This document shows, in pieces, positions 12,242-14,453 of a stretch of DNA of 20,126 bases (its first letter is position 1; each line of letters starts with the position of its first letter). This stretch comes from a virus. Below the pieces are notes generated by a model, which saw nothing but the letters and a program-made list of their open reading frames with translations, was not told the DNA's origin and did not search any database. The translations under genes and the position numbers were made by a program. The stretch is from IMG/VR virus record IMGVR_UViG_3300025141_001019, positions 1 to 20,126 of that record; one strand, 5' to 3'.

Positions 12242-12592
12242 CTACTTAAACGGCCATTTCAGACCCGTTGCTTTTGTAAATTTGCTAATCGCTCTTTTTA
12301 ACATGCTTCCACTGGCATGTGTCCTAGGGTCGCTTAAACCGTGCTTTTTGTACGCATCAATATATCGCTTCTCTCTTCCCAACGCGCTCGCAAAAGCTTT
12401 AATTTCATGAGGCTTGCCTCGTACCTTAACTGGCAAAAATAAATCTTGACCATACATTCGTCTTAAAATTAATTTGGTGATATTTCCAAATATTCTTAAA
12501 AAGCTCTCATCTAACTGATTTTGACGTAATTTTTCAAAATCAATTACCATTTCGGTAATTTTGTCTTCTTGTAATAAATCTTTTTCTTGCAT
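12242..12592 (-). CDS. Small conserved-looking protein between assembly genes and tape measure
   Basis: This is a 116-residue protein. The ATG at 12592 has AGAGGG about 7 nt upstream. It is helical and basic, with no membrane segment. An N-terminal acidic helix (1-30) is followed by a stretch with FLRIFGNITKLILRRMYG (about 31-48), then GKPHEIKAFASALGREKRYIDAY-type sequence (about 59-82), and a C-terminus ending in TGLKWPFK. I associate this pattern (GREKRY, a HGL/DP turn and a terminal aromatic-PF-basic end) with small unnamed proteins next to tape measure genes in T4-like marine phages, but from memory only. Placement immediately before the tape measure (10-bp gap) suggests a tail assembly factor or chaperone. 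No catalytic motif is visible and the function is unknown. Confidence 0.7.
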   Translation of the reverse strand: MQEKDLLQEDKITEMVIDFEKLRQNQLDESFLRIFGNITKLILRRMYGQDLFLPVKVRGKPHEIKAFASALGREKRYIDAYKKHGLSDPRTHASGSMLKRAISKFTKATGLKWPFK

Positions 12593-12631
12593 ACAAGTGC
12601 CCTCTAATAGGTAATTAGTTGATTAAATGAA

Positions 12632-12662
12632 ATGAGCCATGACAAAAATCGTCTTGGCTCAT
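12632..12662 (-). other. Intergenic stem-loop 5 nt after a stop codon
   Basis: The 8-nt arms ATGAGCCA and TGGCTCAT pair perfectly. Inside them GAC/GTC can pair past one A-A mismatch, leaving the loop GATTTTT. The structure lies between the stop of the short overlapping-frame gene (12667-12669) and the 116-residue gene. No U-tract follows on the transcribed strand, so it looks more like an mRNA-processing, stability or pausing hairpin than an intrinsic terminator. Confidence 0.5.
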
Positions 12663-12666
12663 ATTA

Positions 12667-12918
12667 CTACTTAGTATATTTATTAGCTTCAGCTCTCGCA
12701 GATGGCGGCATGCGGGACATTCCTTGTCGTGATAGCTCATGTGAATTGCTACTATTTCCGCTTCTTGCCTCTTCTATCTTTTCATTTTCCTTCTTGAGCT
12801 GCTCAGCCAAGCGCTCAGTGAACCAGTTTCTCAAGCCAACCGGTAGGTTGTAGGCCTCTATAAAGCTCCAACCACCAACATATTTTAAATAGAAAAACTG
12901 TTCATAAACAGCCTCCAT
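12667..12918 (-). CDS. Short tail-assembly protein, probably also made as a frameshift extension of the gene upstream
   Basis: From ATG at 12918 the product is 83 residues. The same frame is open upstream to 12999, overlapping the end of the preceding gene by 74 nt. The natural-looking protein sequence begins at about FFGLSDKYMEA (before the ATG) and continues through EQFFYLKYVGGWSFIEAYNLP and LRNWFTERLAEQLKKENEK to a low-complexity Ser/Arg/Ala tail. The part encoded before 12943 (RRNWRFRLQR-type) looks like out-of-frame translation. The ATG lies 7 nt after the upstream stop, with only a weak AAGTGA as ribosome site, so reinitiation or a frameshift is needed to explain efficient synthesis. 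Aromatic-rich short proteins at this place, between tube and tape measure, are often the second half of a tail assembly chaperone pair. Coding is likely; the mode of expression is inferred. Confidence 0.7.
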   Translation of the reverse strand: MEAVYEQFFYLKYVGGWSFIEAYNLPVGLRNWFTERLAEQLKKENEKIEEARSGNSSNSHELSRQGMSRMPPSARAEANKYTK

Positions 12919-12925
12919 ATATTTA

Positions 12926-13801
12926 TCACTTAGGCCAAAAAAATTCCGTTGTAAACGGAACCTCCAATTGCGCCTCAAAGCCGCACTCCTCACATTCAAA
13001 TTCTTGCATCAAATCAAGTGTTGGGTTGAGCGCCTTATATGCTTTTCTCAAATATCTCGCATCAGAAGCTGGCATATTGTTAATTAAGTATTCAATTGAC
13101 CTTCTTGTCTTGTCACCATTTGCAGAAACGATTGTATACCTGAATTGGGCAGTTGCATTCTTCTCTGGTTTTTTATTTTTCTTTGTTTGAGTTGCAGCGT
13201 TGATAATCTGCTGTTCGTCGCGGCCGGTCAAAAGACGAACTTCAACCTGGACCTGGGTTTTTGGGAGCGTGACAAGAAACGTTCCATTATCGGTGCGTAC
13301 TATGTCATATTCGTCCGTGTCGTCACCATGATATATTTTTGCATCAAACAAGTCAAACTCGTTTTCCTGCTTTTCGCCGCATGCAGTGCAAGCCAATTGA
13401 GTTTTATACATATTGCCGTAGCCAGTAATTCTTGCGGAAACAAGCATTGCACTTTTATCTCCAACCAGTACTGTGTCTAGTTTAATTCTTTTGTCAGCAA
13501 CGATGTTAGACAAAAACCTGTCCAGCGCAATACCCTTCTTCAATAATGTCCTTGATGTCAGGATATCTTCATCTTTCGCCGTCATATGGCGAATTTCAAT
13601 ATGCTCTTGCATGTAAAGAGGGTGGTTTTCGGGATAGTATATCCCTTTTGATGGCAGTTCAACGAATTCTGTTGGAACCACAAATGATAATGGCGCGATC
13701 GCGCCGGCTTGATCCATTGCGGGAGTAGTTGGAGGAGGAGGTTCGGCAGCTGCATGCTGTCTTCGGGAACCGGTTCTGTCCTCATTATTTCTTTTCGGCA
13801 A
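12926..13801 (-). CDS. gp26: gp26-type baseplate/tail assembly protein with CxxC pairs, TTG start
   Basis: This is a 291-residue product. It starts with TTG at 13801, which has AGAGAGG (13808-13814) 6 nt upstream. No ATG precedes it before an in-frame stop about 8 codons upstream, and the next ATG (residue 29) has no ribosome site. Residues 1-35 are a polar, Pro-rich arm. From about 38 comes FVELPSKGIYYPE, then IEIRHMTAKDEDILTSRTLL, then a domain to about 260. I recognise this as the T4_baseplate (T4 gp26) family of distant T4-like phages. Two CxxC pairs, C138/C141 and C270/C273, could bind one zinc ion. The chain ends in TEFFWPK. It lies between tail tube and tape measure, the usual site of tail assembly chaperones. 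The baseplate-hub name comes from T4, and a chaperone role is an equally good reading here. The last codons hold a hairpin and seven-T run. Confidence 0.75.
   Translation of the reverse strand: MPKRNNEDRTGSRRQHAAAEPPPPTTPAMDQAGAIAPLSFVVPTEFVELPSKGIYYPENHPLYMQEHIEIRHMTAKDEDILTSRTLLKKGIALDRFLSNIVADKRIKLDTVLVGDKSAMLVSARITGYGNMYKTQLACTACGEKQENEFDLFDAKIYHGDDTDEYDIVRTDNGTFLVTLPKTQVQVEVRLLTGRDEQQIINAATQTKKNKKPEKNATAQFRYTIVSANGDKTRRSIEYLINNMPASDARYLRKAYKALNPTLDLMQEFECEECGFEAQLEVPFTTEFFWPK
12937..12965 (-). promoter_or_regulatory. Candidate programmed frameshift site (GGAGG, hairpin, seven-T run)
   Basis: Reading 5'-3' on the coding strand: GGAGG (12965-12961); then the perfect hairpin TTCCGTT-TAC-AACGGAA (12960-12944); then seven T (12943-12937); then GGCC. 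The zero frame reads GAA TTT TTT TGG CCT AAG TGA. Slipping +1 with tRNA-Phe on TTT re-pairs perfectly and continues GGC CTA AGT into the 12667 frame; -2 slippage gives the same frame with an extra Phe. The same element has the shape of a short intrinsic terminator, but it lies inside a coding end. Confidence 0.55.
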
Positions 13802-13847: not shown

Positions 13848-14453
13848 TTATTCTTCGACCATGGCCGGGTCCCAAACGGTGTCCGAGACGGTGTCGCCCA
13901 GGTAGGTTGCGCTGGCGCCAGATGTGCCCTTCAGCGTTGCAAAATCGTAACGAAGCTCAATCTCAATTAGTGTAAAATCTTCGCTGTCGTAGTCTAAATC
14001 GCCAAACTTCATATCTTTAATCCAGGCGCCATTTAATGTCCATGTCTCAATTGGCGCGGCATCTGAGTCAATTTGTGTAATTACAACATCTCCTAAAGCG
14101 CTGACCGACCTTCCTTTAGAGATGGTTGTAAATTGAGCAGCATCCGGGCCAGAGGGAATATTATATCCAGAACTCGCGATAACATTAGCAAACGACGTTG
14201 CAATGTCTGGTGCTACTGGGTCAACAAGAGTGACGGAAACTGTATTCCATTCTACTTTACCCGGGTAGTAAAAAGTGTGATTCAAAAATTTATGTGGTGT
14301 TTCGCTTACAGTAAACGAAGGTTTGCTAACTTTTTTACAAAACCACACGGTGCCGCCTAGGCCCGTAAATTGCAGATGAAACTTATAAGCTCTTTTTGGA
14401 TCACGCGCAGCGGTAGTGGCGTCCCCATCTTTGTAATCTGTCCAGAATGGCAT
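13848..14453 (-). CDS. gp19: Tail tube protein (gp19 family)
   Basis: This is a 201-residue protein. The ATG at 14453 has AGGAG 10 nt upstream, 55 bp after the sheath stop. It forms the rigid inner tube through which DNA leaves the head. The sequence is beta-rich: AYKFHLQFTGLGG strand, KKVSKPSFTVSETPHKFLN with the conserved KP-F turn, YYPGKVEWNTVSVTLVDP, and near the C-terminus WTLNGAWIKDMKFGDLDYDSEDFTLIEIELRYDFA, which matches the closing strands of gp19-like tubes. It is somewhat longer than T4 gp19 (163 aa), mostly through a C-terminal tail (about 180-201) ending in VWDPAMVEE. Directly following the sheath gene is the standard order. The assignment is confident by both pattern and place. 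Confidence 0.9.
   Translation of the reverse strand: MPFWTDYKDGDATTAARDPKRAYKFHLQFTGLGGTVWFCKKVSKPSFTVSETPHKFLNHTFYYPGKVEWNTVSVTLVDPVAPDIATSFANVIASSGYNIPSGPDAAQFTTISKGRSVSALGDVVITQIDSDAAPIETWTLNGAWIKDMKFGDLDYDSEDFTLIEIELRYDFATLKGTSGASATYLGDTVSDTVWDPAMVEE

Follow-up and report, generated by a model that had tools for sequence, protein, structure and literature searches.

The window analysed here, a whole 20,126-base IMG/VR virus record, carries on its minus strand two frames, A and B, that share 74 nt (12926-12999). A is of the gp26 type, and B is +1 relative to it (Table 1). The question raised by this locus was whether B is a gene of its own or the end of a longer form of A, reached by a programmed frameshift. 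The initial annotation had inclined to the latter and saw in the two frames a T4-like counterpart of the lambda G/GT pair. The lambda G/GT frameshift itself is -1; P2 E/E' and Mu have tail-gene frameshifts of this type too, and for Mu a -2 shift has been reported.

Table 1. Features of the A/B junction and its neighbours, in coordinates of the window
Feature	Position	Strand	Remarks
gp19-like tail tube gene	13848-14453		5' neighbour of the A/B pair
A, gp26-type short form	12926..13801	minus	291 codons; called from a TTG at 13801; stop TGA 12928-12926
GGAGG, Shine-Dalgarno-like element	12961..12965 (12965-12961)	minus
5' hairpin TTCCGTT-TAC-AACGGAA	12944..12960	minus	adjoins the slip codons
Parts of the hairpin	arm TTCCGTT 12960-12954; loop TAC 12953-12951; arm AACGGAA 12950-12944	minus	perfect 7 bp
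Slip site T7	12937..12943	minus	TTT TTT and one T
B, second frame (+1)	12667..12936	minus	89 codons from GGC plus a stop codon; a small helical domain in the long form
Predicted +1 product A+B	12670..13801	minus	377 residues
116-aa protein	12242-12592	minus	between the A/B pair and the presumed tape measure gene

The final codons of A are GAA TTT TTT TGG CCT AAG TGA, and its 3' end reads GGAGG-TTCCGTT-TAC-AACGGAA-TTTTTTT-GGCCTAAG-TGA. The T7 run, the GGAGG and the 7-bp hairpin described earlier were found base for base on the minus strand, and the coordinates, the overlap and the predicted fusion were likewise correct. Reading +1 past TTT TTT would join 288 residues of A to 89 of B, 377 in all, at ...TEFF-GLSDKYMEAVYEQ; the predicted product was translated with TGGC read as G.

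A is preceded at its TTG start (13801) by AGAGAGGTG, and its N-terminus, counted from this TTG, was conserved in loci L001 and L002. It matched PF12322 (T4_baseplate) with an E-value of 1.1e-9 and 38.8 bits, above the curated cut-off of 24.5, and phrog_150 with an E-value of 7.9e-14. The structures of A and B were predicted separately, that of B with a pLDDT of 80.6.

On the minus strand, the gp19-like tube gene is followed by the A/B pair (13801-12667); then come an ORF of 116 codons and a frame of 1009 codons, the latter presumed from its position to encode the tape measure protein. Searches of Pfam and PHROG gave no family match for the 1009-codon frame and none for the 116-aa protein. A tape measure annotation is carried by the large gene that comes next in immuto, LIS04 and SP-15. 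The layout is thus that of a G/GT-type locus, with two overlapping frames flanked by the tail tube gene on one side and the presumed tape measure gene on the other. Directly 3' of the B stop is an inverted repeat, ATGAGCCA...TGGCTCAT (12628-12661, minus strand), and L001 and L002 have a comparable repeat after B.

A first set of 102 junctions, the window included, was collected by alignment-based scans of IMG/VR and GTDB contigs and from phage records. The canonical site TT[T/C][T/C]TTT, with the +1-frame domain running from the slip, was present in 96 of them: 82 had TTTTTTTGGCCT, six another TTTTTTTGG, one T8, four TTTCTTTGGCCT and three TTCTTTTGG. Four further junctions (L005, L008, L009 and L011) showed a variant site in a +1 layout; the remaining two (L010 and L013) use -1.

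In the junction alignment the entropy of the slip columns was 0-0.25 bit, and the slip hexamer and the next T were nearly invariant, though the homologues were mostly 43-55% identical in protein. Third-position variation followed the zero frame up to the slip and the +1 frame after it. B was conserved from GL onward in the relatives and started exactly at the slip, where its sensible sequence had been said to begin. The T-run and the overlap were kept while third positions varied; the hairpin and the GGAGG were kept in the near clade, and the block from GGAGG to GGCCTAAG was almost identical in two near relatives (95% and 71% protein identity). Sequencing error was ruled out, about 190 junctions having come from independent metagenomes and isolates.

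If B were instead made alone from ATG 12918, by termination and re-initiation at the overlapping stop, the locus would encode two separate proteins. This could in principle happen in the window itself, which shares with 39 homologues an in-frame ATG 8-10 nt past the zero-frame stop. However, 51 of 93 loci had no ATG within the first 18 codons of B, 34 of the 93 had no ATG, GTG or TTG there, and in 14 no start codon was present even as far back as the previous stop. A slippery sequence conserved next to a second frame that in many relatives lacks its own start is what a G/GT-type pair shows. At the position of this ATG, members of the +1 clade encoded M in 38 cases, I in 25 and one of nine other residues (N, A, R, S and T among these) in the rest. 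The invariant G1 and L2 of B stand ahead of the ATG, and so does the predicted start of its first helix, at residue 4. Homologues with a gap between the frames and a good ribosome-binding site were looked for and none was seen: an SD-like tetramer preceded the ATG in 0 of the 39 loci having it, and no Shine-Dalgarno (SD) sequence was found before ATG 12918-12916, in agreement with the weak ribosome site noted there earlier. Since about half of the loci lack the ATG, re-initiation fails as a general explanation, and we regard it as very unlikely. The slip conservation, the start of B at the slip and the ATG-less loci all support the original suggestion of a T4-like counterpart of the G/GT pair.

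The direction of the slip had been left open between +1 and -2. On the window's T7, TTT also re-pairs perfectly at -2, the shift reported for Mu, and the variant sites were informative here. At TTT CTT TGG the second codon would re-pair +1 on TTT, as in prfB; at TTC TTT TGG and TTC TTT CGT (L008) the second codon TTT would do so on TTT or TTC, and at TTT CTA (L005) TTT on TTC. Re-pairing at +1, as TTT or TTC, was perfect at every variant site listed, whereas a -2 shift would give mismatches at TTT CTT TGG, TTC TTT TGG, TTC TTT CGT (L008) and TTT CTA (L005). This makes -2 highly improbable. Slippage of the RNA polymerase on T7, giving a mixed pool of mRNA, would be suited by the long homopolymer present in most members, and a nascent RNA hairpin can likewise stimulate such slippage (PMC5009743). 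Seven loci with an interrupted T-run (TTTCTTT in four, TTCTTTT in three) nevertheless kept the +1 arrangement unchanged, and the selected 5' hairpin and SD-like element described below suit ribosomes; programmed transcriptional slippage is thus extremely unlikely. Because the variant sites mismatch at -2 and a broken T-run should defeat the polymerase, we favour a +1 ribosomal slip at the T-run.

The sequence 5' of the slip was compared with synonymous shuffles that preserved the protein and drew codons according to each gene's usage, in 94 distinct homologues. The 18 nt just 5' of the slip had a mean folding energy of -4.5 kcal/mol, compared with about -1.05 in the shuffles (mean z about -3), whereas upstream control windows gave z values centred near 0. 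The 3' end of the predicted stem was mostly 2-5 nt ahead of the slip. Positions -13:-5, -12:-6, -16:-5 and -13:-8 paired more often than in column shuffles. Where codon -4 was Leu, codon -2 was Ala in 30 loci and Thr, which gives a C-A mismatch, in one; where codon -4 was Phe, codon -2 was Thr in 19 and Ala in 14. This Leu-Ala/Phe-Thr covariation had a p value of 1.6e-6, inflated by shared ancestry.

At codon -7, GAG was used 58 times and GAA 3 times, compared with 737 and 1215 in the gene bodies, and the GGAGG duplex reached -10.7 kcal/mol, compared with -6.1 in the synonymous shuffles. The hairpin and the GGAGG are selected beyond the coding constraint. About 9 of the 94 clade members had no hairpin or a weak one, as did L006 and L012, two +1 phages that are more distant, so the hairpin is not essential everywhere. 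The linear spacing from GGAGG to the second TTT is 20 nt; extrusion of the hairpin would be needed to make it short.

The arrangement resembles prfB (RF2), where a +1 slip occurs at CTT T, onto TTT, with a 5' SD-like element at short spacing. Four relatives carry CTT T, the prfB slip codon and the next T. Unlike in prfB, the A-site codon here is the sense codon TGG, not a stop, and 20 nt, including a hairpin, separate the SD from the slip codon. In synthetic constructs a 5' stem-loop can stimulate +1 shifting, and in the bypassing of T4 gene 60 a 5' stem-loop works as a motor; how 5' hairpin stimulators work has been called mysterious (all PMC5009743).

In T4 genes 25 and 38, shortening of the SD distance by a hairpin is documented (PMC3014915), and in these split ribosome-binding sites, as is proposed here, an intervening hairpin brings the SD to a working distance. 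The split site of gene 25 sits at the homologous place, the 3' end of gene 26; its origin has been placed within the close T-even phages (PMC3014915). Unlike the signal described here, that of gene 25 serves initiation and not frameshifting, and the register of its hairpin differs. The last 45 nt of T4 gene 26 (L106 6429-5803, minus strand) contain the gene 25 site as GAGG and CTCAAAG-AGTT-CTTTGAG, and this site overlaps the place that corresponds by homology to the relatives' slip site. It may be a remnant put to new use, or the overlap may be coincidental.

The PF12322 frame also ended at a slip sequence in other phages of the wider family. This was T TTT TTC in PA5oct, Atu_ph07, 121Q, Munch, GAP32, K64-1, Vibrio 2.275, XbC2, SCTP-2 and Phosso and T TTT TTT in CM1, and in all of these the small domain continued in the -1 frame. 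In loci of the cyanophage S-RIM8 type, TTTTTTC was kept in 80 of 80, and the -1 frame, where complete, had about 55-66 codons. Jumbo phages and cyanophage-type loci are thus predicted to join the same two domains by a -1 shift at T TTT TTC. The 5' hairpin was absent from the -1 cyanophage clade by the same folding test. This clade (L128-L207) has a GAGGG-like sequence about 10 nt before TTTTTTC, a dnaX-like SD spacing, but the residues encoded there account for most of this sequence (z about -0.5).

The 45-aa 'baseplate hub assembly catalyst' annotated in S-RIM8 is only the Met-started tail of the -1 frame. The ORFs annotated behind gp26 as 'gp51' in S-RIM8, SP15_046 and immuto35A_232 are such truncated, Met-started pieces of the shifted frame, and in Listeria LIS04 nothing is annotated in this region. 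The regions concerned are L108 4115-4252, L011 4755-4874, L007 4833-4943 and L009 4708-4939.

In two bacterial genomes, PF12322 and DUF6760 were found in one 255-codon ORF (L209 859-1623 and L210 859-1623), preceded by a gp19-like tube gene in the manner of a contractile injection system. By its domain content this ORF would be a natural A+B fusion made without a shift. DUF6760 matched some members of the B domain weakly and looks like the unnamed B domain; it was present in 3 of 396 Bacteroidota genomes.

Both T4 gp26 and T4 gp51 matched PF12322. Compared by hhalign, the gp51 family aligned all through the cyanophage fusion, the slip point included (97.8%, E 1.1e-12), whereas the alignment of T4 gp26 with the same fusion stopped at the slip (97.4%). 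A thus shares homology with gp26 and with the N-terminal region of gp51, and the B domain of the relatives matches the C-terminus of gp51: the latter aligned with cyanophage B at 94.7% (5.8e-8), and window-clade B with cyanophage B at 96.3% (1.6e-9). The profile of window-clade B gave no significant match directly to T4 gp51, so the cyanophage bridge is needed for the link. Through this bridge, window-clade B is related to the C-terminal part of gp51. Among 44 members of B, six matched phrog_634, 'baseplate hub assembly catalyst', with a best E-value of 4.7e-4.

T4 differs in that gp26 and gp51 are encoded by two genes on opposite strands, with no frameshift. The comparisons suggest that T4 makes both forms from separate genes, A from 26 and A+B from 51. 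In a midpoint-rooted tree of the A domain, which had some long branches, gp26 and gp51 grouped as sisters (99/94) next to the cyanophage -1 clade (100/99). On this tree the -1 label must have changed at least twice. In the T4 line, a single frameshifted gene was apparently duplicated and so divided between two genes; the reverse order is less likely.

A review describes the G/GT-type frameshift as widely conserved 'except T4' (PMC5009743), and for gp26 and gp51 a role as chaperone or cofactor has been no more than proposed (PMC9024508). Like lambda G/GT, P2 E/E' and Mu, the present locus has a short form and a predicted frameshifted long form between tail tube and presumed tape measure, and, as in lambda G/GT, the C-terminal extension is small and in a shifted frame. 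It differs from lambda in that its proteins belong to PF12322 (T4 gp26/gp51), for which no kinship with lambda G was detected in sequence, and that the predicted shift is +1 (-1 in relatives) with a 5' SD-hairpin signal. Comparison of A and B with the PDB by sequence and fold gave nothing significant; HK97 gp13 (2ob9), a known tail chaperone, was the second fold match of A, with an E-value of 1.1. A match of B to DNA polymerase III theta (E 0.03) was weak and was judged to be chance. From its position, its architecture and its T4 kinship, the A/B pair likely works like the G/GT tail chaperone; we do not claim that it belongs to the lambda protein family.

On the comparisons above, it is highly probable that the locus encodes a lambda G/GT-like pair of short and long tail chaperones produced by a +1 frameshift with an unusual 5' SD-hairpin stimulator, the T4 forms of which are the products of genes 26 and 51. 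We infer that in vivo most ribosomes would stop after the 291-residue A, and that with some efficiency a fraction at GAA TTT TTT TGG would undergo a +1 slip of the peptidyl-tRNA in the T-run, from TTT to TTT (from CTT to TTT, as in prfB, in some relatives), and read on in the second frame to give the 377-residue A+B. The GGAGG and the slip-abutting hairpin would promote the slip from the 5' side: the hairpin would fold on leaving the ribosome and pull the mRNA forward, and the spacing from SD to P site would be cut from 20 to about 3 nt, the spacing in prfB. A would act on the tape measure protein and B would recruit the tail tube or hub, as lambda gpG and gpGT do.

A search of the open literature, with subscription papers outside its scope, found no prior report of this frameshift. 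We lean slightly towards a history in which a selected 5' SD and hairpin drives the +1 shift, with the hairpin drawing the mRNA forward until the SD is at the prfB spacing, and in which gp26 and gp51 descend from a single frameshifted gene whose shift changed between -1 and +1 in the course of evolution and which was duplicated in the T4 line.

The junctions provide many natural +1 sites that come with a selected 5' hairpin, and numerous genome annotations would be corrected. The T4-like relatives examined (marine, cyanophage and jumbo) are predicted to frameshift, by +1 or by -1, and the data suggest that T4 is an exception to the chaperone frameshift only because its gene was split. This would give a testable function to gp26 and gp51, two T4 proteins long studied yet poorly understood.
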